IMG/VR virus record: IMGVR_UViG_3300022602_000281
Span: 1-32,461 of that record
DNA from: a virus
Length of the DNA: 32,461 bases
Strand: one strand, 5' to 3'
Shown: piece by piece, positions 9,211 to 17,114 of the stretch
How the letters are laid out: each line of letters begins with the position of its first letter
How positions within the stretch are numbered: the stretch's first letter is position 1
The notes under the pieces: model-generated
Told to the model about the DNA's origin: nothing
Seen by the model: only the letters and a program-made list of their open reading frames with translations
Databases searched by the model: none
Translations under genes and position numbers: made by a program

Positions 9211-9213
9211 TGT

Positions 9214-9246
9214 GTATACCTTGAAAAAGTATACGTCCTAACTTAA
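9214..9246 (+). promoter_or_regulatory. leader module copy 1: hairpin plus TCCTAACTTAA
   Basis: GTATAC (9214-9219) and GTATAC (9229-9234) form a 6-bp stem. One base later comes TCCTAACTTAA (9236-9246). The 9271 gene starts 24 bp further. Same layout as at 9541, 9921, 10131, 12936 and 16309. Confidence 0.6.
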
Positions 9247-9270
9247 TCAACTTTCCCTAAGGGTTAAAAC

Positions 9271-9507
9271 ATGAATAAATCAACTGTAAACCGTGATGAG
9301 TATTTAAACTTTTTCACAAATTGGATTTTCTATCAATTCGATAGACCTTCAAATCGTATGCGTAACATCTTAATCATTCGCCAGGTATCAAAGATTGTTA
9401 TTGATGATGATGAAGCAGCATATTGGGGTGGTAGGGATTGCTGGTCTATGCACGATATAGCAAGCGAAGCATTGAAAAATACAGCTATTGAGGCGGTAAC
9501 AGCTTAA
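9271..9507 (+). CDS. small early protein, function unknown
   Basis: 78 residues. The N-terminus is aromatic-rich (EYLNFFTNWIFYQFDRP), then RNILIIRQVSKIVIDDDE, then AYWGGRDCWSMHDIASEAL. No membrane segment or known domain is recognised. The ATG at 9271 follows TAAGGG and the first copy of the recurring leader module. It is the first of a row of very small early genes, each with its own leader, a layout typical of host-takeover genes, though no such role is shown here. Confidence 0.65.
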   Translation: MNKSTVNRDEYLNFFTNWIFYQFDRPSNRMRNILIIRQVSKIVIDDDEAAYWGGRDCWSMHDIASEALKNTAIEAVTA

Positions 9508-9513
9508 AACCTA

Positions 9514-9576
9514 GCGTATAGCCTCTTATGGGGGCTATGCGATACGTTTTAGCGTATCTTTTTAATCCTAACTTAA
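9514..9576 (+). terminator. attenuator-like hairpins plus leader module copy 2
   Basis: The first hairpin pairs 9515-9523 with 9533-9541. The second, GATACG (9541-9546) with CGTATC (9553-9558), is followed by five T residues, forming a short intrinsic terminator. AGCGTAT occurs in the 5' arms of both, so the two could be alternative folds. TCCTAACTTAA follows at 9566-9576, then AGAGG and the gene at 9589. Confidence 0.6.
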
Positions 9577-9588
9577 AGAGGCTTCACA

Positions 9589-9882
9589 ATGCAAAGAATC
9601 ACAAACAAACAATTAGAAAATCTGGCTACATGGATAAATGAGCTAACTGGGTCACCTCTTACACCGTACCGTAGAGATGAAAACGATAGATTAGTGGCTA
9701 ATGTAGGTAACTACCATATTTATCACGCTTATGGCGGTGTAGAGCTTCACCGCATGGCTAACGAGGCTGGCGGTATTAGGGTCGTTATCAATAGCGGATG
9801 TACTACTAAGAGAGACCTATATAACCTTATGCACGCCTACATTAAGGGCTTGATGACCGAAAAAGAATCAATAGCTGCCTAA
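9589..9882 (+). CDS. conserved small phage protein
   Basis: 97 residues with the run TNKQLENLATWINELTGSPL, then ANVGNYHIYHAYGGVELHRM (about 42-61), then KRDLYNLMHAYIKG. The combination of a helical N-terminus and the GNYH..AYGGV.LH core recurs in small early proteins of many proteobacterial phages; function is not known to me. ATG 9589 follows AGAGG at suitable spacing and leader copy 2. Confidence 0.75.
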   Translation: MQRITNKQLENLATWINELTGSPLTPYRRDENDRLVANVGNYHIYHAYGGVELHRMANEAGGIRVVINSGCTTKRDLYNLMHAYIKGLMTEKESIAA

Positions 9883-9889
9883 AATAACA

Positions 9890-9920
9890 GCTTCTAGAGG
9901 CTTCTATGAGGCTTCTAGGG
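9890..9920 (+). repeat. three tandem ~10-bp repeats
   Basis: GCTTCTAGAG (9890-9899), GCTTCTATGAG (9900-9910) and GCTTCTAGGG (9911-9920) follow one another directly after the 9589-9882 gene and before leader copy 3. TCTAGA and CTAG steps make weak local pairing possible. Confidence 0.5.
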
Positions 9921-9947
9921 GATGCTATTTTGCATCATCCTAACTTA
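9921..9947 (+). promoter_or_regulatory. leader module copy 3: hairpin plus TCCTAACTTA
   Basis: GATGC (9921-9925) pairs with GCATC (9932-9936) around TATTTT. TCCTAACTTA is at 9938-9947, followed by GAGG and the ATG at 9958. The bases GAGGTAATTATGA before and at the start are identical to those before the 10181 gene. Confidence 0.55.
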
Positions 9948-9957
9948 CGAGGTAATT

Positions 9958-10092
9958 ATGAATACATTAAAGCCTACACAATGCCATGAGACTCTACGCT
10001 GGTATGTAACGGGTTACTTAACTGGTCGTAAATACTGGGGACACTCCGCACGTGCAGCCGAGTTACTTGCTCAGTCTTATTTCTATAAATGA
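9958..10092 (+). CDS. small early protein, 44 residues
   Basis: ATG 9958 follows GAGG at five bases. The frame gives 44 residues beginning MNTLKPTQCHETLRWYVTGY and ending SYFYK, with GRKYWGHSARAAELLAQ in the middle. The Trp/Tyr content and regular coding frame suggest a folded small protein. Its TGA lies eight bases before the next ATG. Function unknown. Confidence 0.6.
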   Translation: MNTLKPTQCHETLRWYVTGYLTGRKYWGHSARAAELLAQSYFYK

Positions 10093-10100
10093 GGCTTTGC

Positions 10101-10178
10101 ATGATATATCAAGACCTTTTTACTATATTGGGGCTAACCCTAGCCCTCCTTATCCTAACTTTTAACTTAATGAGGTAA
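10101..10178 (+). CDS. 25-residue single-pass membrane micropeptide (candidate)
   Basis: ATG 10101 follows GAGG at six bases. The peptide MIYQDLFTILGLTLALLILT continues with FNLMR and a stop. Residues about 7-21 are a hydrophobic membrane span and the ends are polar, with a C-terminal Arg. Its 3' half overlaps leader copy 4, so the same DNA serves as codons and as the hairpin plus TCCTAACTT. Its TAA is two bases before the next ATG. Translation is plausible from spacing but unproven. Confidence 0.4.
   Translation: MIYQDLFTILGLTLALLILTFNLMR
10131..10170 (+). promoter_or_regulatory. leader module copy 4: hairpin plus TCCTAACTT
   Basis: GGGCTA (10131-10136) pairs with TAGCCC (10141-10146) around ACCC. 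TCCTAACTT is at 10153-10161, followed directly by TTAACTTAA (10162-10170), as if the motif tail were doubled. GAGGTAATT and the ATG at 10181 follow. Confidence 0.5.
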
Positions 10179-10180
10179 TT

Positions 10181-10363
10181 ATGACCAGCTTAACTAAAAC
10201 CGCATCTTGGGTAATCGTAAGCAAGCAATCAGGCAAAGCCATACTAGAAACCTTTGATTCATCATTGGTCAACTGTATCAACCAAAAGCTATATAAAGCC
10301 GTACCGATTTTAGAATATCTCCAAAACCTTAACAAAAGCATTAAGGAGACGCACAATGCCTAA
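10181..10363 (+). CDS. conserved small phage protein (WVIV..SGKA type)
   Basis: 60 residues: TASWVIVSKQSGKAILETFD (about 7-26), then VNCINQKLYKAVPILEYLQNLN. The beta-hairpin start and the YKAVPILEYL ending resemble a recurrent family of small proteins in proteobacterial phages, function unknown. ATG 10181 follows GAGG at five bases. It overlaps the following gene by eight bases. Confidence 0.7.
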   Translation: MTSLTKTASWVIVSKQSGKAILETFDSSLVNCINQKLYKAVPILEYLQNLNKSIKETHNA

Positions 10364-10502
10364 ACTATCAGAGATTGAATTAGAACTACTTTCCCTGGTC
10401 CTGGCGGACTATATCGACAATGTAGACCCTAGTTTAGACGGTAAACTGTTACAGATATTTAAGAAAATTAAACAATTAAACAAGGAGAATGAGAATGTAT
10501 AA
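10356..10502 (+). CDS. small acidic helical protein, 48 residues
   Basis: ATG 10356 follows AAGGAG. The product begins MPKLSEIELELLSLVLADYI and ends with a basic helix (FKKIKQLNKENENV). The amphipathic Leu/Glu-rich N-terminal helix and second helix suggest a helical hairpin that could dimerise. It overlaps both neighbours by eight bases, indicating translational coupling. Function unknown. Confidence 0.55.
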   Translation: MPKLSEIELELLSLVLADYIDNVDPSLDGKLLQIFKKIKQLNKENENV

Positions 10503-10629
10503 ACCAGACTTTGGTATTGAAAAGCCCCAGAGGTCTCAAGTGACCTTAGATACGCAAGACCTAGTTTTGTACCTACTGGGTGCATTTTTAGCAGGCATGG
10601 GTGTAGTGGTGCTGTATCTTGGACTATAA
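10495..10629 (+). CDS. small single-pass membrane protein, 44 residues
   Basis: ATG 10495 follows AAGGAG. Residues 1-24 are polar and charged. Residues about 25-44 (LVLYLLGAFLAGMGVVVLYL) form one membrane span reaching the C-terminus. It is a tail-anchored-like protein with a cytoplasmic N-terminus by the positive-inside trend. It is the last gene before the structured non-coding region. An inner-membrane early protein acting on the host is possible but unproven. Confidence 0.55.
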   Translation: MYKPDFGIEKPQRSQVTLDTQDLVLYLLGAFLAGMGVVVLYLGL

Positions 10630-10680
10630 GCCCCGTACGGTATGGCAGCCCATAGGTGCTATACCCATACTGAAACGGGG
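10630..10680 (+). other. long two-part hairpin directly after a coding gene
   Basis: CCCCGT (10631-10636) pairs with ACGGGG (10675-10680). CGGTATGG (10638-10645) pairs with CCATACTG (10665-10672) with one wobble, leaving a small 1x2 internal loop and a 19-base apical loop. GCCCCGTACG (10630-10639) recurs at 10687-10696 and could compete for the same ACGGGG arm. No T-run follows, so this is a stable RNA structure or protein site rather than a classic terminator. Confidence 0.55.
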
Positions 10681-10792
10681 TAGAAAGCCCCGTACGCCTT
10701 CCCGCTGTGAGGTCTTAGGGGTTTGTAAAGGTGTCCCTGCGGAGTGCCCCAGATGCCCAAATAAGAAAATAATTAAAATTAAATTAAAGTTG

Positions 10793-10801
10793 TGATATAG
10801 T
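10793..10801 (+). promoter_or_regulatory. candidate extended -10 promoter of the small RNA
   Basis: TGA followed by TATAGT (10796-10801) is an extended -10 match. TTAAAA at 10773-10778, 17 bases upstream, is a weak -35. The A/T-rich stretch 10762-10790 could act as an UP-like element. The expected start, about 10808, falls exactly at the first small-RNA hairpin. Confidence 0.45.
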
Positions 10802-10807
10802 TAGCCC

Positions 10808-10909
10808 CATTGCAGTCGCGTGCAATAGAAAGTAAGGCTATTTTGATAACTCTCCTACCCCAACATAACGGGGACGCGATTAGGAGGGTTTTTAAAGTAG
10901 CCTTTTTTT
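10808..10909 (+). ncRNA. candidate small non-coding RNA with its own terminator
   Basis: Hairpin one is ATTGCA (10809-10814) with TGCAAT (10821-10826). A nested structure follows: outer stem AAGGCTA (10834-10840) with TAGCCTT (10898-10904); middle stem 10850-10857 with 10881-10888 (eight pairs, one wobble); inner stem CCCC (10858-10861) with GGGG (10870-10873). Seven T residues at 10903-10909 end it like an intrinsic terminator. No gene overlaps. A 9-14 base gap separates it from the TCCTAAC at 10914-10920. Expression is inferred from promoter-like and terminator-like ends. Confidence 0.5.
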
Positions 10910-10913
10910 ATTG

Positions 10914-11148
10914 TCCTAACGATTGCAATACCTACGGGGTTAGACAACCAGACCCTTGAGAATGTGGATGCGACAGACTCAGATAAACGTGCCGAACTGG
11001 GCGTGTGTCTCCTAGCGTGAGGAGCTTCGGGGCAGAGAAAAACCAGGCAGACTATAAGTTTGTAGGCTAGATAAACGAGAGCATCTCACGATTGTGGATA
11101 ACTTTATTTACAGTTGTGGAGTACTAGAGTGTTTTTTCTCTGGTTGCC
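10914..11148 (+). other. non-coding region with hairpins and DnaA-box-like sites
   Basis: No gene seen. TCCTAAC at 10914-10920 follows the small-RNA terminator. Nested pairing links CCGAA (10992-10996) with TTCGG (11026-11030) around CTCC/GGAG. AGAGAAAAA near 11035 can pair with TTTTTCTCT near 11133. TGTGGATAA (11093-11101) is the exact reverse complement of the DnaA box TTATCCACA. Near matches TGTGGATGC (about 10962) and TGTGGAGTA (about 11115) have the same orientation. An origin or regulatory RNA is possible. Confidence 0.45.
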
Positions 11149-11200
11149 TTCCCTATGGGAATGTTAAAAGAGTAAAAAAATTATTGAAATTCCTAACTAT
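11149..11200 (+). promoter_or_regulatory. leader module copy 5 (degenerate)
   Basis: TTCCC (11149-11153) pairs with GGGAA (11157-11161). After about 30 A/T-rich bases comes TCCTAACTAT (11191-11200), then GAGG and the ATG at 11215. Hairpin and motif are further apart than in the other copies. Confidence 0.4.
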
Positions 11201-11214
11201 TGAGGTATTTAAAA

Positions 11215-11445
11215 ATGAAAATAGATTTCGGGGAGACCCATTTAGAAAAAATAGACAGGCTATCTAAGCCCCATAAGTGGTTTGCATGGTATCCAGTAGA
11301 GATAAGTGCCCATGATTACAGATGGTTAGAGTATGTTGAGCGTACGGGTAAGCCGTCTGCTTACTGTGATGGTCTTTGGTTTTGGAGATATAAAGCAATA
11401 CCCAAAACAGTTGGGGATGTACTTAAGGAGATAGAGAATGACTAA
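11215..11445 (+). CDS. small early protein, function unknown
   Basis: 76 residues from ATG 11215, which follows GAGG; an in-frame TTG at 11200 lies on the ribosome binding site itself. It is Trp/Tyr-rich: HKWFAWYPVEISAHDYRWLE (about 21-40), then GLWFWRYKAIPKT. It reads like a small beta-rich fold. The end overlaps the next gene by eight bases. No recognised domain. Confidence 0.65.
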   Translation: MKIDFGETHLEKIDRLSKPHKWFAWYPVEISAHDYRWLEYVERTGKPSAYCDGLWFWRYKAIPKTVGDVLKEIEND

Positions 11446-11749
11446 AGAAGAAATAATTGAATTAGCTATACAGGCTGGAATTAAGCATAGGACAGATGAA
11501 TTTTATTCAGAATTTTGTGATGGCGTTTATTTCGATGACCTTATAACCTTTGCCAAACTGGTTAGGGCTGACTATGGCAAATTACACGCTTCTCTTTGGT
11601 TAAAAAGAATTGATGATGCCGTAAAAAAAGAACGTGAGGAATGTGCAAAGATTTGTGAAAAATTAGTTTTAGAAGATGATTCTTTTTATGGTGAATTTTC
11701 TGGCGGTAAAGATTGTGCTAAAGCTATTCGTGCAAGGGGACAAGAATGA
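11438..11749 (+). CDS. conserved phage protein with REECAKICE helix
   Basis: 103 residues. The N-terminal helix MTKEEIIELAIQAGI is followed by a YFDDLITFAKLVRADYG segment. A charged helix VKKEREECAKICEKLVL (about 64-80) and a terminal CAKAIRARGQE complete it. The EREECAK..CE plus C..AIR-ARG signature is common in small accessory proteins of proteobacterial phages; function unknown. ATG 11438 follows AAGGAG. Confidence 0.75.
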   Translation: MTKEEIIELAIQAGIKHRTDEFYSEFCDGVYFDDLITFAKLVRADYGKLHASLWLKRIDDAVKKEREECAKICEKLVLEDDSFYGEFSGGKDCAKAIRARGQE

Positions 11750-11904
11750 ATGAGAGGCAACTTTACAAAATATTAAATGATTCTATTTATCTTATAGATT
11801 ACTACGATAAAAAAGAACAGTTTGATGAACGAATGTTGTTTGTTTTATTCGTTAGAGACTGGGCTTGTCATTGCATTATCAATCTTCCTAGGAGAAAAAA
11901 ATGA
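11746..11904 (+). CDS. small protein, 52 residues
   Basis: ATG 11746 overlaps the previous stop (ATGA), and its own TGA overlaps the next ATG in the same way, so it is coupled on both sides. The product begins MNERQLYKILNDSIYLIDYY, has FDERMLFVLFVRDWACHCII and ends in PRRKK. It is helical and aromatic-rich with a basic tail. Function unknown. Confidence 0.6.
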   Translation: MNERQLYKILNDSIYLIDYYDKKEQFDERMLFVLFVRDWACHCIINLPRRKK

Positions 11905-12443
11905 TAGAACTACTAGAACAAAGAAAAGCAGAGCTAAAAGCTAAATATAAGAAGACCCCAGATATAGAGATATATGTACGCATATCTGAGGTCAATATCT
12001 TAATCAAAAGATATAAGAAACTTATAGAAGCAGAGGTGGACGCAGCAGGGTTTAGGGAGGAACTGGGTAACCTGGTAGCCCTTATGAGTGGACTGGAGGC
12101 CGACAAAGATAGGCCAGGTGTTATTTGTGACAAAAATGGGCAAGTTGTGTTAAGCCTTTGCAAGAGTTGTGGTAGAGGCGAGGCTGAGTTGGAAACTTCA
12201 TGCGATAAAGCCAAGCAAGAGCAGAATGAGCCTGAAACCTTGAACTACACGGTTAGCGTTGAATGCAAACGATGCGGTTCGCACGAAAAGTATGACTTAG
12301 AAGTTGATTATCCCCCGCCACAACAACGCAAGCCTCTGACAAGAAAAGATATTGATAGATTGCATGAGGAAGACTGTTTTTCTGGGAATATTTATGAGAT
12401 TACAGCCGAAATCGAAGCCGCCCACGGCATTAATAAGGAGTAA
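11901..12443 (+). CDS. zinc-ribbon-type accessory protein with N-terminal coiled coil
   Basis: 180 residues. Residues 1-45 form a charged helix (LLEQRKAELKAKYKK). Residues about 87-95 carry CKSCGRGEAELE, a motif seen in many small phage proteins. Further Cys pairs (CKRCGSHEKYDLE, about 122-134) could make a second zinc site resembling Com/Lar-type knuckles. The C-terminal helix carries RKDIDRLHEEDCF. ATG 11901 follows AGGAG. It may bind nucleic acid; the composite looks like several short phage modules joined. Role unknown. Confidence 0.65.
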   Translation: MIELLEQRKAELKAKYKKTPDIEIYVRISEVNILIKRYKKLIEAEVDAAGFREELGNLVALMSGLEADKDRPGVICDKNGQVVLSLCKSCGRGEAELETSCDKAKQEQNEPETLNYTVSVECKRCGSHEKYDLEVDYPPPQQRKPLTRKDIDRLHEEDCFSGNIYEITAEIEAAHGINKE

Positions 12444-12446
12444 GAC

Positions 12447-12863
12447 ATGAAATACGAATACTGCTGTAAGTGTGACTGCGCCACAGGCAAGGCTGGGGTT
12501 GGTGAAGATTCTTTATATACAGAGACGGATGGCCCATTTTGTGAAAATTGTTTTCCTGAATTTAAGTCAAAGCAAGAGCAAGATGAGCCAGTTGCTATGC
12601 GTTATGACTTTGATGGATACGGATATAAATACATAGACTCAGGCAGTGGAAGTGACTGGCAGACCAGAGAGAGGGGAGCAGAACCCCTTTACACCAAACC
12701 ACAAACTAAAGAATGGGCTGACCTAAGCGTTGATGATATAGAGGACATTGCCGAGCAGTTCCATGATATTGACTATGACATAAATGAGAACCCCTACGAT
12801 ATCTTTGACCACATGGGTTATGCACTAGCACTGCAAGCCAAGCTAAAAGAAAAGAATTCTTAA
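12447..12863 (+). CDS. zinc-ribbon protein with acidic C-terminal half
   Basis: 138 residues. The N-terminus has YCCKCDCATGKAG (Cys 6, 7, 9 and 11 by eye) and FCENCF (about 31-36), a plausible treble-clef or ribbon. The middle has AEPLYTKPQTKEW, a segment shared by many phage accessory proteins. The C-terminal half is strongly acidic (LSVDDIEDIAEQFHDIDYDI). It starts three bases after the previous stop. An acidic, DNA-mimic-like tail is an inference only. Function unknown. Confidence 0.65.
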   Translation: MKYEYCCKCDCATGKAGVGEDSLYTETDGPFCENCFPEFKSKQEQDEPVAMRYDFDGYGYKYIDSGSGSDWQTRERGAEPLYTKPQTKEWADLSVDDIEDIAEQFHDIDYDINENPYDIFDHMGYALALQAKLKEKNS

Positions 12864-12920
12864 TATTTACACAAACTTTACATAAGGAGATAATCATTCT
12901 GTTTAAGACTAATCATCTAA

Positions 12921-12970
12921 TGCTATAATCCTCTCATCACATATATGTATGTGATATTTTCCTAACTTAA
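12921..12970 (+). promoter_or_regulatory. extended -10 promoter plus leader module copy 6
   Basis: TGC plus TATAAT (12924-12929) is a perfect extended -10; the -35 side (TTTAAG, 12902-12907) is weak. The expected start, about 12936, is the first base of a perfect hairpin, ATCACATA (12936-12943) with TATGTGAT (12948-12955). TCCTAACTTAA is at 12960-12970, then AAAGGA and the ATG at 12990. This is the clearest promoter-hairpin-motif example. Confidence 0.6.
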
Positions 12971-12989
12971 ACCTGAAAGGATGTTTCAC

Positions 12990-13238
12990 ATGAAACTATG
13001 TATCAACTGTAGGTATTTTGAAGTTGCAGAAAATGCACGCAATACTTTTGCCAAATGCACCCGTGGAAGGGTTTTAAGCCCTGTAGACGGCTCTCCAACA
13101 CCTCTGGACGAACTACCCTACTGCTCAGTAGAAAGAAACAGTACGTTAGCCGAAAGATGCACGATAGAAGCTATCTATTTTCAGTCTAGCTTGGCCTTTG
13201 ATGTCCAGCCTATTCATTTTGGAGGCTCTCATGTCTGA
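12990..13238 (+). CDS. small Cys-rich (zinc-binding-like) phage protein
   Basis: 82 residues from ATG 12990, nine bases after AAAGGA; an ATG at 12981 overlaps that site. Cysteines occur in CINCRYF (near the start), KCTRG, YCSVER and RCTIE, a spacing typical of small phage proteins that probably bind zinc. VDGSPTPLDELPYCSVER is a recurrent core. It overlaps the exonuclease start by eight bases and leads the recombination module. Function unknown. Confidence 0.65.
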   Translation: MKLCINCRYFEVAENARNTFAKCTRGRVLSPVDGSPTPLDELPYCSVERNSTLAERCTIEAIYFQSSLAFDVQPIHFGGSHV

Positions 13239-14130
13239 TTTCACACCACAAACAAGGAATAGCGCTATCTGGTCAGGTGACTCCCGCAGAGTTGCCCGAG
13301 GTAAGGCTAACGAGGTCATCCTCACAAAACAAGGCAAGCTGGACATACCAGACTTGTCAGGCATAGAGGCCGTGCAGATGGGGCACGTCATGGAACCCGT
13401 AATTGGTAGGCTTGCACAAACAAAACTGGGTGTAGAGCTTAACAAGATAGAGGAAAGCCTGACTCACAAGAAGGAAGCCTGGTTTAAATCACATTTTGAC
13501 TTTGCAGGGACTAAAGATGGACAAACAATTCTGGTCGAGTGTAAAAACTATAACGCTGGTACTCGTTCTAAGTTTGATGATGTTAGCAATACCATTCCTC
13601 ACGCTGATATGGCTCAGTTAATCCACGAGACTGCCGTATTCGGGAATACCCGCATATACCTAGCAGTCTTGTTTGGAGGCCAAGAGTTCGTTATGTTCCC
13701 GTTTGACATCTCTGACCAACAAAAGGATGAACTTATCCAGCAGATGGCTAAGGTCTGGGGTCATGTACAAGCAGGAACAACACTTCCGCCAGAGGATTTA
13801 GACCAAGTAAAGCTACTGTACCCGCAGGAGACCCCAGGAACGGTCAAAACAGCCTCTCAGAGCGTGGAGGAGGCTTGCAGGGCACTACGGCAGATAAAGG
13901 ACGAAATAAAGCTCCTAGAAGGCCGTGAGGAGCAGATTCAGACCTTAATATCTGGTTATATGGAGTCGGCATCTAGTTTGCAGTCTATAAACGGCTCTGT
14001 ACTCGCTACTTGGAAGAACGCCAAGCCTAGCCAGAAATTTGACTCTAAGCTCTTTCAACAGTCTATGCCTGACATCTACAAGAAGTTTGTAGTTGAACAA
14101 CCAGGTTCACGGAGGTTCTTAATAAAATGA
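13231..14130 (+). CDS. YqaJ-type viral recombinase exonuclease
   Basis: 299 residues from ATG 13231, which follows GGAGG; an upstream in-frame ATG would lie inside the preceding gene. This is a PD-(D/E)XK nuclease that resects double-stranded DNA ends for the annealing protein. The conserved GHVMEPVIG (51-59, Glu55), FKSHFDFAG (Asp90) and LVECKNY (Glu103, Lys105) supply the catalytic set. A C-terminal helical region (EACRALRQIKDEIKLLEGRE) follows. It is paired with the RecT-type gene at 14415, forming a Red-like two-component recombination system. Confidence 0.88.
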   Translation: MSDFTPQTRNSAIWSGDSRRVARGKANEVILTKQGKLDIPDLSGIEAVQMGHVMEPVIGRLAQTKLGVELNKIEESLTHKKEAWFKSHFDFAGTKDGQTILVECKNYNAGTRSKFDDVSNTIPHADMAQLIHETAVFGNTRIYLAVLFGGQEFVMFPFDISDQQKDELIQQMAKVWGHVQAGTTLPPEDLDQVKLLYPQETPGTVKTASQSVEEACRALRQIKDEIKLLEGREEQIQTLISGYMESASSLQSINGSVLATWKNAKPSQKFDSKLFQQSMPDIYKKFVVEQPGSRRFLIK

Positions 14131-14213
14131 GTAATCCTGACTGGGCACTATACATTCTGACGGCTAGTTCCGTTATCGACACACTACTATCTATTTGGAA
14201 GAAGTTGGCATGA
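14127..14213 (+). CDS. 28-residue peptide between exonuclease and next gene
   Basis: ATG 14127 overlaps the exonuclease stop (ATGA), and its TGA overlaps the following ATG. The peptide begins MSNPDWALYILTASSVIDTL and ends LSIWKKLA. It is amphipathic, possibly membrane-associated. The double overlap and the GGAGG at 14112-14116 favour real translation, but the length is small. Confidence 0.4.
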   Translation: MSNPDWALYILTASSVIDTLLSIWKKLA

Positions 14214-14422
14214 AGGCATATCCAATAATGTTCAAACACCCCACAACAGGGGCAATCATAGAAAACCAAGGCATGGAACTCAGAGACTGGTTTGCAGGGA
14301 TGACTATGCAAGGGATGCTATCTGAACATTCAGGCATTAGATATGGTACGGATGAACTTGTACAGTTTTCTTATGAAGTAGCAGATGCAATGATGAAACA
14401 AAGAGAGGTTAAAAATGTCTAA
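14210..14422 (+). CDS. conserved small phage protein (GMELRDWFAG type)
   Basis: 70 residues with GMELRDWFAGMTMQGMLSE (about 21-39) and FSYEVADAMMKQRE. The L-RDWFAG..MQG....A..DAM pattern recurs in small early proteins of proteobacterial phages, usually near recombination or replication genes. Function unknown. The stop overlaps the next start by eight bases. Confidence 0.75.
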   Translation: MKAYPIMFKHPTTGAIIENQGMELRDWFAGMTMQGMLSEHSGIRYGTDELVQFSYEVADAMMKQREVKNV

Positions 14423-15227
14423 TTTAGTAGCAGTATCTGATATGAACGTCATGGCTGACGCTATGGTGAAATCAAACTTTTACGGATTTAAAAACAAAGA
14501 CCAAATGTTAGCCGTTATGCTTGTTGCACAGGCAGAAGGTAAACATCCTGCGACAGTCGTTCAAGAGTACGACATTATTATGGGCAGACCAGCTCTTAAA
14601 TCACAGGCCATGCTTGCTCGTTTTCAGTTAGCAGGAGGAAAGGTTGACTGGCACGAAATATCGCCTACAAAGTGCTCTGGTACGTTCTCTCACCCACAAG
14701 GAGGTTCTTTGAAGGTTGAGTGGACTATTGAAATGGCTAAATTAGCGGGTCTTTACAAAGAAAATTCTGGATGGACAAAATATCCTGAAGATATGCTCCG
14801 TTCTAGGGTTGTCAGTAGAGCTGTAAGGTCTGTTTATCCCGCTTGCATCTTAGGACACTATGCTGTTGAGGAAGTTCAAGATTTTGACCCCCCAAAAGTC
14901 AAAGATATGGGAATAGCTCAAGAAGTAGTGCAAGAAGTTGTGGAAGATGGAGCGTTCAAACTCTACGTACCAAACCTAGACGAACCACACTCTAGCTACC
15001 ACTCTGTTGAAGACTGGATTGCAGCCTACGGCAACATGGTAGGCAGAATCATGTCATCAAACAAGATTGCAGAGGCTGAAAAGGCTAAGAAGGTAGATTC
15101 CCTCAAAGTAGCAAACGAGTTTGTGGTTGACGGTTTTTCGACAGTGGATAAGCTAAAGGTTAAGGCAGCTATTGCCGAGGCTGGAGGTAATCCACTCCCA
15201 AAGACAGTGGTGTCTCAGGACGTTTAG
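14415..15227 (+). CDS. RecT-family single-strand annealing protein
   Basis: 270 residues. The N-terminal half has KNKDQMLAVMLVAQAEGKHP (about 26-45) and YDIIMGRPALKSQAMLARFQ. The signature WTKYPEDMLRSRVVSRAVRS (about 119-138) is followed by YPACILGHYAVEEVQD. These match the RecT fold, which anneals complementary strands and works with the YqaJ exonuclease encoded upstream. The C-terminal third is less conserved and may oligomerise. ATG 14415 follows GAGG. Confidence 0.85.
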   Translation: MSNLVAVSDMNVMADAMVKSNFYGFKNKDQMLAVMLVAQAEGKHPATVVQEYDIIMGRPALKSQAMLARFQLAGGKVDWHEISPTKCSGTFSHPQGGSLKVEWTIEMAKLAGLYKENSGWTKYPEDMLRSRVVSRAVRSVYPACILGHYAVEEVQDFDPPKVKDMGIAQEVVQEVVEDGAFKLYVPNLDEPHSSYHSVEDWIAAYGNMVGRIMSSNKIAEAEKAKKVDSLKVANEFVVDGFSTVDKLKVKAAIAEAGGNPLPKTVVSQDV

Positions 15228-15247
15228 GAACTCAAAAGAGCAATATC

Positions 15248-15442
15248 TTGAGACACCTACAAAATGGACTTACCATCACACCACAGGATGCCCTCCAGCA
15301 CTACGGTTCGTTTAGGCTTGCAGCCCATATCGAAGTCCTTAGAAAAGAGGGACATCCCATCATTACAAAAATGGTTAGAGAGGGCGGGAAAGAGTACGCC
15401 CAATACAAATATTTATCAGGAGAAACCACGCATGGCAACTAA
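15248..15442 (+). CDS. winged-helix-like small protein
   Basis: 64 residues from a TTG at 15248 that follows AAGAG. The text NGLTITPQDALQHYGSFRLA and AHIEVLRKEGHPI is a helix-turn-helix or winged-helix core common in small phage proteins. Upstream in-frame codons read GTQKSNIL, which fits the family N-terminus, but no ATG or GTG occurs before a stop at 15188. The start is therefore uncertain. It may bind DNA. It overlaps the next gene by 11 bases. Confidence 0.6.
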   Translation: MRHLQNGLTITPQDALQHYGSFRLAAHIEVLRKEGHPIITKMVREGGKEYAQYKYLSGETTHGN

Positions 15443-15749
15443 CAACAACTATCCCGACAAACCTGGCTACGGAACACTGTTTTACGTAGCTCCAGAGAAC
15501 AAAAAGCACCCACAAGGTCCTGATTTCACAGGCCATTTAGTCCTGGACATGGATTACAAGGCTGGTGAGCGTGTTAACTTTGGTTTGTGGCAGAAAGAGA
15601 CAAAACAGGGCACGACTATGTTCTCTGTTCGTGAAGACAACTGGCTGAAAAAGAAAAAGCTAGAGGAGCAACAACCTAAAGAGGTAACTCCTGGCTACGC
15701 TAGAAATAAAGTCAAGTATGGTGATGACGATAACTCTATACCCTTCTGA
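15432..15749 (+). CDS. candidate single-stranded-DNA-binding accessory protein with SSB-like tail
   Basis: 105 residues from ATG 15432, which has AGGAG upstream; the longer frame from 15264 is out of line with the winged-helix gene. The core GTLFYVAPENKKHPQGPD and VNFGLWQKETKQGTTMFSV reads as an all-beta, OB-like small protein. The acidic C-terminal end GDDDNSIPF closely resembles the SSB C-terminal peptide (DDDIPF) that recruits host repair proteins. Location beside RecT and YqaJ fits. Fold and DNA binding are inferred. Confidence 0.6.
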   Translation: MATNNNYPDKPGYGTLFYVAPENKKHPQGPDFTGHLVLDMDYKAGERVNFGLWQKETKQGTTMFSVREDNWLKKKKLEEQQPKEVTPGYARNKVKYGDDDNSIPF

Positions 15750-16069
15750 TGGCCAAGGAATCTCCCACTTCTCGAACATTAGCCGTATTGCGGGAGCAAG
15801 GCTATACAGTTGCTATTGTTGAAAAGTGGAATCCACACGCCAGAATACGCCAGGACTTGTTTGGCTTTATAGATATATTGGCTATCAAGCGAGATGAGAC
15901 CTTGGCGGTTCAGGCAACAGCTAGTGGCGTTAGCGACAGAATCAAGAAAATAATGGCAAGTGAACTATTACCGAAAGTGAGGGAAGCAGGATGGAAAATA
16001 CAAGTATGGGGATGGAGAAAGAGCAGCAAGACTGGGAAGTACGTTCTGCGGATAGAGGACATATCATAA
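15749..16069 (+). CDS. PD-(D/E)XK-fold-like protein, possibly nuclease-derived
   Basis: 106 residues. LFGFIDILAI (about 35-44) supplies the Asp of a restriction-endonuclease-like fold. The next strand TLAVQATASG has Gln-x-Thr where the usual Glu-x-Lys is expected. A helix with RIKKIM and a strand WKIQVWGWRK complete the fold. The family is common in phages near recombination genes. The missing E-x-K suggests a structural, DNA-binding or altered catalytic role. ATG overlaps the previous stop (TGATG). Confidence 0.65.
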   Translation: MAKESPTSRTLAVLREQGYTVAIVEKWNPHARIRQDLFGFIDILAIKRDETLAVQATASGVSDRIKKIMASELLPKVREAGWKIQVWGWRKSSKTGKYVLRIEDIS

Positions 16070-16173
16070 AGCTGAAGAACATGAGTATTCAGGAAATATA
16101 CGATATGGCTTACCAACAAGGGTTTGAAGACGGAATGAGCTTTGTAACAACGCCTAAAATAGCTCACGGTTGA
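16012..16173 (+). CDS. small acidic helical protein, start uncertain
   Basis: 53 residues from ATG 16012; starts at 15991 and 16081 are alternatives. The best-conserved-looking part is MSIQEIYDMAYQQGFEDGMS from 16081, a helical motif (IYDMAYQQG-F-EDG) found in many very short phage proteins. The 5' part overlaps the nuclease-fold gene. It ends six bases before the tRNA. Low confidence in the exact start. Confidence 0.45.
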   Translation: MEKEQQDWEVRSADRGHIIKLKNMSIQEIYDMAYQQGFEDGMSFVTTPKIAHG

Positions 16174-16178
16174 ATCAC

Positions 16179-16254
16179 GGGATGTTAGCTCAGATGGTAG
16201 AGCAGCAGACTTTTAATTTGTTGGTCGTGGGTTCGAACCCCGCACATCCCACCA
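16179..16254 (+). tRNA. tRNA-Lys (anticodon UUU)
   Basis: 76 bases fold as a complete cloverleaf. The acceptor stem is 16179-16185 with 16244-16250. The D stem is GCTC/GAGC (16188-16191, 16200-16203). The anticodon stem is 16205-16209 with 16217-16221, with loop CTTTTAA and anticodon TTT at 16212-16214. The T arm is GTGGG-TTCGAAC-CCCGC (16227-16243), the discriminator A is 16251 and CCA is encoded at 16252-16254. It would decode AAA/AAG Lys codons. Confidence 0.95.
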
Positions 16255-16271
16255 TCATTCCAGTGAGAGGC

Positions 16272-16353
16272 AACTACGAGAGCAAATCTCGGAGTTAGGA
16301 CAGGTGCTGACAGACCCCCTGTAATCTCACAGTCTGTCATTTTCTTAACTTAA
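16272..16353 (+). promoter_or_regulatory. hairpins plus leader module copy 7
   Basis: The first hairpin pairs 16272-16281 with 16287-16296 (nine pairs, one mismatch) around GCAAA. The second pairs GACAGA (16309-16314) with TCTGTC (16333-16338) plus CTGT/ACAG inside. ATTT follows, then TCTTAACTTAA (16343-16353, one mismatch to the motif), AGGA and the ATG at 16365. It separates the tRNA from the glycosyltransferase and may end tRNA transcription. Confidence 0.5.
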
Positions 16354-16364
16354 CTAGGAACATC

Positions 16365-17114
16365 ATGGAAAAAAAAGGAAATATATTCGTCTGTACGCCA
16401 ATGTATGGTGGCATGTGTACAGGCTACTACACACAGAGTTTGCTGACACTTGGTCCTGTGCTCAACCAAAATGGCTATGACATGGCTTATTCCGCTATGT
16501 TTAACGAGTCTTTGATTCAGCGAGGACGTAACGCACTTGCTCACGGGTTTATGCAGCGCCCCGAGTGCACTCACTTGATGTTCATAGACGCAGATATTAA
16601 GTTCAATCCGCAGGACATCATCAAGATGATTGAGGCGGACAAGGACATCATTTGCGGTATCTATCCTAAGAAGGAAATAAACTGGGTAGAGGTTGAGAAG
16701 GCCGTCAAGGAAGGTGTGCCTACCGATAGGCTAAAAACACGCACAGCAAGCGTTGTAGTCAATTTAAAGGACTATGCTGGTAGCGTAACCGTTCCTGTTA
16801 GTGAGCCTGTAGAGATATTTAACGGTGGTACAGGGTTTATGCTCATCAAGAGGTCTACTTTTGAGACGATGAAGTCTGTTGTTAATAGCTACAACAATGA
16901 CGTACTGTTCTTAGACGGAGGCATCTCTAACGACCGCATTACCGAGTATTTTGCTTGTGCTATAGAGCCAGGCACAGAAAGACTGCTCTCAGAGGATTAT
17001 TTCTTCTGCTGGAAGGCTAGAGAAGCGGGTCTTAAAGTCTGGGCAGCACCTTGGGCGCAGTTGGGTCACTTTGGTAGCTACTTATTTGAGGGTGGCCTCA
17101 CTCCAGCGCCATGA
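16365..17114 (+). CDS. GT-A-fold glycosyltransferase
   Basis: 249 residues. The N-terminus NIFVCTPMYGGMCTGYYTQS is followed by LIQRGRNALAHGF and the metal-binding LMFIDADIKF (DAD, 75-77). Then come DIICGIYPKK, FNGGTGFMLI and, near the C-terminus, SEDYFFCWKAREAG, which carries the probable catalytic acid and acceptor-site region, ending with GHFGSYLFEGG. This is a family frequent in aquatic phages. The acceptor is unknown: host surface glycan, virion protein or modified DNA. ATG 16365 follows AGGA. The stop overlaps the FkbM gene by four bases. Confidence 0.8.
   Translation: MEKKGNIFVCTPMYGGMCTGYYTQSLLTLGPVLNQNGYDMAYSAMFNESLIQRGRNALAHGFMQRPECTHLMFIDADIKFNPQDIIKMIEADKDIICGIYPKKEINWVEVEKAVKEGVPTDRLKTRTASVVVNLKDYAGSVTVPVSEPVEIFNGGTGFMLIKRSTFETMKSVVNSYNNDVLFLDGGISNDRITEYFACAIEPGTERLLSEDYFFCWKAREAGLKVWAAPWAQLGHFGSYLFEGGLTPAP

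Follow-up and report, generated by a model that had tools for sequence, protein, structure and literature searches.

A conserved double-pseudoknot RNA as the probable partner of a shared motif in early-gene leaders of RecE-encoding phages

We analyzed the early-gene leaders of a 32,461-nucleotide viral sequence (IMG/VR record IMGVR_UViG_3300022602_000281; hereafter, the window), in which a short motif recurs upstream of ribosome binding sites, and compared them with the leaders of related phages. The motif, with the core CCTAAC and the form TCCTAACT in the window, is very probably the target of a phage-encoded double-pseudoknot RNA located at approximately 16263–16339. According to the predicted fold, this RNA would expose AGTTAGGA as a single-stranded linker between its helices P2 and P3. 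Comparison among relatives demonstrated the enrichment of the motif, the fold of the putative RNA, the complementarity of the two, and the covariation of RNA and leaders. It thus seems that early genes in many phages of the group are governed by an RNA switch, one that we did not find in the databases and papers searched.

The window is a linear virus record of 32.5 kb, with portal and terminase genes on the minus strand and an early region encoding a RecE-like exonuclease and RecT on the plus strand; it contains one tRNA-Lys gene. A preliminary description had singled out the 11-mer TCCTAACTTAA, and its counts were borne out: exact copies are found at 9236, 9566, and 12960, on the plus strand only, against 0.02 expected in the window, while none of 100 dinucleotide shuffles reached three copies and the reversed control gave none. 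The near copies reported at 9938, 10153, 11191, and 16343 were all located. Among the early plus-strand genes listed, 7 of 18 have the motif in their leader, compared with 0 of 26 minus-strand genes. These seven are the genes with a free-standing leader, and the genes overlapping or abutting an upstream neighbor lack the motif; the gap displayed before 14415 is occupied by small open reading frames (ORFs) absent from the 18-gene list. A hairpin had been described beside most copies, and we found a stem ending within 10 nt upstream at six sites: at 9236, 9566, 9938, 10153, and 12960 by a stem search and at 16343 by direct reading. The exception was the copy at 11191, where the stem search gave no good stem within 10 nt.

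To place the motif in a wider context, we used as relatives 80 IMG/VR contigs linked to the window by their RecE, among which a few lake systems contribute more than their share; sites were made non-redundant by context. Exact copies of TCCTAACTTAA numbered 25 on the early strand and 0 on the reverse strand, and all 17 distinct exact 11-mers were found to lie in leaders. When no motif was presupposed, TCCTAAC was the most enriched 7-mer of the plus-strand leaders (65 occurrences vs. 2.7 expected), with a ribosome binding site almost always behind it, and no enrichment was seen on the minus strand of these contigs. A solid stem ended at most 10 nt upstream in 69% of 49 non-redundant sites, compared with 16% of other leaders and 17% of shuffles. 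The enrichment in relatives agrees with the earlier view of a selected module in which the hairpins vary while the motif persists, and the association with hairpins expected in related genomes is present. As a unit, the 11-mer fared less well: its copies are real, but the conserved core is CCTAAC, the flanks vary between phages, and CTTAA is largely filler. Single-substitution counts indicated that the changes tolerated are mainly C to T at positions 2 and 3 and T to C at position 8. A proposed pairing of TCCT with a downstream AGGA was not conserved, AGGA being present in only 9 of the 49 non-redundant leaders.

In several phages, the hairpin of the recE-operon leader starts ~7 nt past a conserved TATAAT and hence where the mRNA is predicted to begin. 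The two elements also occur apart in this leader, with a motif close to the 5′ end but no hairpin in some relatives and a hairpin without the motif in others; we therefore regard hairpin and motif as separate features. The motif as a general element of all phages was rejected: a scan of the whole collection for the motif followed by AGG and ATG returned mostly scattered chance matches, and a dinucleotide-matched control was equally abundant among the matches listed. In the range L610–L675 (numbers with the prefix L denote loci), many loci have multiple TCCTAACN leaders, as many as eight, in which position 8 is less strict, and the regulon may be larger there.

The structure of the putative RNA was supported by an alignment of 27 homologs, which agreed with the four helices P1, P2, P3, and P4. 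Two-sided pair changes were found in P1, P2, and P3, few column shuffles matching the alignment, and P4 forms pseudoknots with both P3 and P1. A covariance model recovered the RNA in distant relatives, on the recE strand and downstream of recE. Using a structure parser that fixed GTTAGG only, we obtained the four-helix topology in 15 of 16 divergent representatives, whereas shuffled versions almost never parsed and, when they did, had a far lower score. The same fold was found in 155 loci representing 78 distinct sequences, as befits a conserved RNA element of phage genomes. Its most constant part is the linker between P2 and P3, which in the window phage is the exact complement of TCCTAACT. 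No family in Rfam matches the RNA, and literature searches on the motif and on pseudoknot regulators of phages, mostly covering abstracts, yielded no matching description. The near copy at 16343, rightly noticed at the outset, turned out to be the 3′ tail of this pseudoknotted RNA. Just upstream, a tRNA-Lys gene (16179–16262 region) ends 8 nt before the RNA, and a tRNA-like 3′ end, CCCACCA, is found at the same place in many, not all, relatives. A GenBank "complete genome" (L322, MW202753.1) likewise contains the pseudoknot RNA, at ~27720 on the minus strand, together with two TCCTAACT leaders; none of the three is annotated.

We then compared the RNA with the leaders. In a 7-mer scan along the RNA against the early leaders of 12 phages, only the linker was complementary, with 45 sites; other positions of the RNA averaged 0.8, and the minus strand gave 0. 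The complement of the linker sits ~17–40 nt before the start codon, and the agreement holds phage by phage: linker AGTTAGGA goes with leaders TCCTAACT, linker GGTTAGGA goes with leaders TCCTAACC (L080–L083, L441–L444, and L509–L524), and linker GGTTAGGC (GGTTAGG) goes with CCTAACC leaders (L035–L048). Two further scans revealed RNAs with the linker AGTTAGGT, ending in GGT; from this ending, ACCTAAC leaders were predicted and then found, ACCTAAC being the top 7-mer in that group. Motif and linker were each located by their core, and the flanking positions are hence what the covariation test measures; at position 8, the search limited the linker to A or G, while the leaders were unrestricted at positions 1, 8, and 9. 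Over all loci, in totals without phylogenetic correction, a seed T at position 1 was accompanied by a leader A in 39 of 39 cases and a seed A by a leader T in 137 of 165. At position 8, seed A went with leader T (120/155) and seed G with leader C (85/109), and covariation at position 9 was likewise above independence. Base 8 of the seed changed four times on the RecE tree, at least three of the changes being forced by supported branches, and the leaders followed. An apparent exception, L523, was a false site, and the recE leader of this locus reads TCCTAACCC. Among 55 RecE clusters, RNA and motif were both found in 19 and both missing in 30, with 6 discordant (Fisher p 6.6e-9, not corrected for phylogeny). 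The seed is complementary to separate target RNAs and the two show compensatory changes. An RNA-binding-protein or RNase site, as previously suggested for the motif, is a poor explanation because the motif flanks change, in Watson–Crick fashion, as complements of an exposed linker kilobases away. The earlier interpretation of a selected module acting at the RNA level on early genes still seems the most plausible, but the partners then proposed are not the best account of the motif, and the partner RNA was missed.

Several observations weigh against this reading. We saw neither a clear promoter nor a clear terminator dedicated to the RNA, which may function as part of an mRNA leader. In L026 and L030, the motif is kept and the RNA was not detected; position 8 is looser in the L610–L669 group, and the L035 and L559 groups often lack a pair at position 1. 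Ranking sites in the window by duplex energy did not set all true leaders apart from false ones: the top nine comprised five of the six trans leaders and four sites without the motif, and the remaining leader (12981) was absent from the top 16. The sign of the regulation, finally, we infer from position and gene order alone.

In the mechanism that we propose, the linker would base-pair in the cell with the motif in the free-standing early leaders, forming 8–9 bp just upstream of the ribosome binding site, while the adjacent hairpin or the transcript 5′ end would keep the target open and probably protect the mRNA. We envisage the RNA as a discrete molecule, probably a processed one, that would be released from the early transcript; in the window phage, the tRNA lies directly ahead of it, and tRNA processing would free its 5′ end. 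Owing to its location at the distal end of the early region, the RNA would accumulate late, pair beside the Shine–Dalgarno sequence, and lower the translation of the early genes. In some phages, the tail of the RNA itself supplies the next gene with a copy of the motif, which would bring this gene under the same control. We lean toward repression of early-gene translation as the outcome, with activation or stabilization given a somewhat smaller chance. It is reasonably probable, in our judgment, that a large and mainly uncultivated group of RecE phages has a whole early regulon under one dedicated double-pseudoknot RNA, with co-evolving seed and leaders and a site that tags swapped-in genes, forming an RNA-only counterpart of a master repressor.

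The alternative closest to this mechanism keeps the linker:leader pairing but places it inside one long polycistronic early mRNA, or has it activate or stabilize the early mRNAs. The RNA does lie in the same plus-strand early region without a clear promoter, and a duplex formed at the targets, which are close to or at mRNA 5′ ends, could block decay. The leaders, however, have promoter-like sites of their own and terminator-like stems between them, which makes one shared transcript unlikely, and in some leaders (L058 and L074) the site abuts the Shine–Dalgarno sequence, favoring occlusion; we consider the alternative unlikely, if still worth keeping in mind. Far less credible is a local leader structure in which the RNA pairs only with the motif of its own 3′ tail, the other leaders sharing the motif for an unrelated reason, such as a protein site. 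The tail TYYTAAC of the window clade can pair with GTTAGGA, often through G·U wobbles, and in one set of 56 tails, 50 agree with the seed at position 8. Nevertheless, the tails of 106 of the 155 RNAs have no CCTAAC, yet the seed is retained and varies in step with distant leaders, and pairing inside the RNA alone therefore cannot account for the covariation. At six loci (L054, L080, L082, L083, L441, and L444), the tail forms no Watson–Crick pair with the seed at position 8, whereas the distant leaders do. A helix of linker and own tail as the sole function was rejected, most tails being without the motif.

Two more explanations do without the phage RNA. The leader of T7 gene 10 has a hairpin, a TTAACTT-like epsilon element, and then the Shine–Dalgarno sequence, and a similar enhancer would have the motif pair with the host 16S ribosomal RNA (rRNA) or bind S1, with the hairpin as a 5′ shield. 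The order of hairpin, pyrimidine/AAC element, and Shine–Dalgarno sequence is shared, the hairpins begin at the predicted transcript 5′ end, and TTAACTT resembles the epsilon element. Yet GTTAGGA is absent from the rRNAs of Escherichia coli, which may not be the host, and four betaproteobacterial 16S rRNAs, also possibly not those of hosts, were no more complementary to the motif than to permuted motifs. Two betaproteobacterial bins holding related phages showed no enrichment of the motif, with 1 and 2 copies compared with 5 and 2 reversed-control copies, and a host-wide leader element was rejected. Such an enhancer would also leave the covariation with the phage RNA, the partner found here, unexplained, and we think it very improbable; an epsilon-type element could be what the RNA blocks. 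The five relatives of TerL found in bins of metagenome-assembled genomes come from mixed taxa and so indicate no single host, the two bins above being the betaproteobacterial ones, and no RecE relative was found among prophages in sequenced genomes. The least probable explanation, with hardly any chance in our estimate, is a recombination tag. In promoter early stem-loop (PeSL) cassettes of T4-type phages, stem-loop leader modules persist while the genes behind them are exchanged, and the motif might likewise be kept only as a junction for gene swaps. Leaders do persist while the genes behind them are swapped: leaders identical up to TCCTAAC precede unrelated proteins in different phages, 109 leader pairs of at least 80% identity lack any similarity between their proteins, and identical pseudoknot leaders are found ahead of unrelated proteins (L011/L014, L062/L064, and L080/L083). 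In the window, the leader of ORF 9589–9882 has an identical counterpart before an unrelated gene in L014. The pattern is that of a PeSL-like shuffling cassette, a conserved stem-loop leader with exchanged genes, promoters being found at some copies only. What a junction does not explain is the motif's retention in the recE-operon leader, though most of the surrounding leader changed, and its tracking of the linker of a distant RNA. The constant tag differs from PeSL in being an RNA target site, with or without a promoter, and any gene with the tag would join the regulon, making leader shuffling probably a consequence.

The constant downstream gene or pathway of a cis-acting riboswitch or leader element was not found, unrelated proteins lying behind identical pseudoknot leaders. 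Antitermination sites of the nut/put type lie singly in an operon near its promoter and act on downstream terminators, which does not fit a motif that is found once in the leader of each free-standing gene and that often follows a terminator-like stem. Among base-pairing regulators, bacterial small RNAs of the GcvB type use a short exposed seed on many mRNAs, with enhancer elements upstream of the Shine–Dalgarno sequence. The window-phage RNA would share their breadth of targets and the site upstream of the ribosome binding site but is phage encoded, has viral early targets, and differs in fold. The CI RNA of satellite phage P4 is processed from an untranslated transcript and pairs with more than one site in its own transcript, switching genes off (PMC4825925). 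It is likewise phage encoded and controls phage genes by pairing with several complementary sites, but it involves two linked sites (seqA and seqC), transcription termination, and the lysogenic state (PMC4825925), whereas the window phage has a single kind of 8-nt site repeated in several independent leaders and a double-pseudoknot RNA, and the search for prophages gave none. Other phage base-pairing RNAs acting on phage or host genes include sar of P22, OOP and PreS of lambda, VpdS of VP882, and 24B_1 (PMC12197685). The sections seen of this review describe none with a common tag in most of the phage's own early leaders and do not mention a pseudoknot (PMC12197685).

Phage base-pairing RNAs are so far known singly. 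If the proposed reading is true, an RNA family that is conserved, has a covarying seed, and serves a multigene early regulon would be a new way of timing phage infection, spread over well over a hundred environmental contigs. It would explain the purpose of the motif and why leaders stay constant while genes swap. NCCTAACN before a ribosome binding site would serve as a tag for finding early genes, here nearly all of unknown function, and the seed:target pair can be re-matched for testing.

Table 1. Positions in the window of the leader elements, the predicted RNA, and reference genes
Feature	Position	Strand	Basis
Hairpin of the first early leader, TGTATAC..GTATACG	9213..9235	+	stem search
Target site TCCTAACTTAA, leader of ORF 9271-9507	9236..9246	+	
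Terminator-like hairpin GATACGTTTTAGCGTATC followed by T5	9541..9558	+	
Target site TCCTAACTTAA, leader of ORF 9589-9882	9566..9576	+	
Hairpin GATGCTATTTTGCATC	9921..9936	+	
Target site TCCTAACTTAC, leader of ORF 9958-10092	9938..9948	+	
Hairpin GGGGCTAACCCTAGCCCT	10130..10147	+	
Target site TCCTAACTTTT, leader of ORF 10181-10363	10153..10163	+	
Target site TCCTAACTA, leader of ORF starting at 11215; without strong neighboring hairpin	11191..11199	+	
-10 box TATAAT (TGCTATAAT) of the recE-operon promoter; kept in relatives	12924..12929	+	
5′-terminal hairpin ATCACATATATGTATGTGAT, beginning 7 nt past the -10 box (predicted transcription start)	12936..12955	+	
Target site TCCTAACTTAA, leader of ORF 12981-13238 (recE operon)	12960..12970	+	
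RecE-like exonuclease gene, anchor for finding relatives	13198..14130	+	
tRNA-Lys(TTT), directly upstream of the pseudoknot RNA	16179..16254	+	
Putative double-pseudoknot RNA	16263..16339 (approx.)	+	alignment, covariation, structure parser, covariance model
Helix P1	16263-16268/16325-16330	+	
Helix P2	16277-16281/16287-16291	+	
Helix P3	16300-16304/16318-16322	+	
Helix P4	16308-16315/16332-16339	+	
Linker (seed) AGTTAGGA, complement of TCCTAACT	16293..16300	+	
TCTTAACTTAA, weaker copy of the target, part of the 3′ tail of the RNA and of the leader of ORF 16365-17114	16343..16353	+	

Other elements were observed near the early leaders. The spacer of the recE-operon promoter (12902–12929), with GACTAATCATCTA before TATAAT, is strikingly conserved across many phages, which suggests a site for an activator or a modified polymerase. 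Positions 10808–10911 form a small RNA-like unit, with an extended -10 promoter-like site ahead, a long stem, and a T7 run (TAGCCTTTTTTT) at the end. The isolated TCCTAAC at 10914 is present as first described, directly behind the terminator-like stem of this unit, but it leads into a non-coding conserved region and no ORF. This second conserved non-coding stretch (10930–11090) contains the near-invariant blocks GCGAC..GATAAACGTnnnGAAC, CTCCT, TCGGGG, and TAGATAAACGAGA, lies ~1–2 kb before recE, and is kept even in L323, with a RecE of 46% identity; it has no match in Rfam and may be a structured RNA or belong to a replication origin. A DnaA-box-like TTGTGGATAA is found at 11092–11101, with TTATCCACA nearby in relatives, and given these sequences, an origin may lie here.

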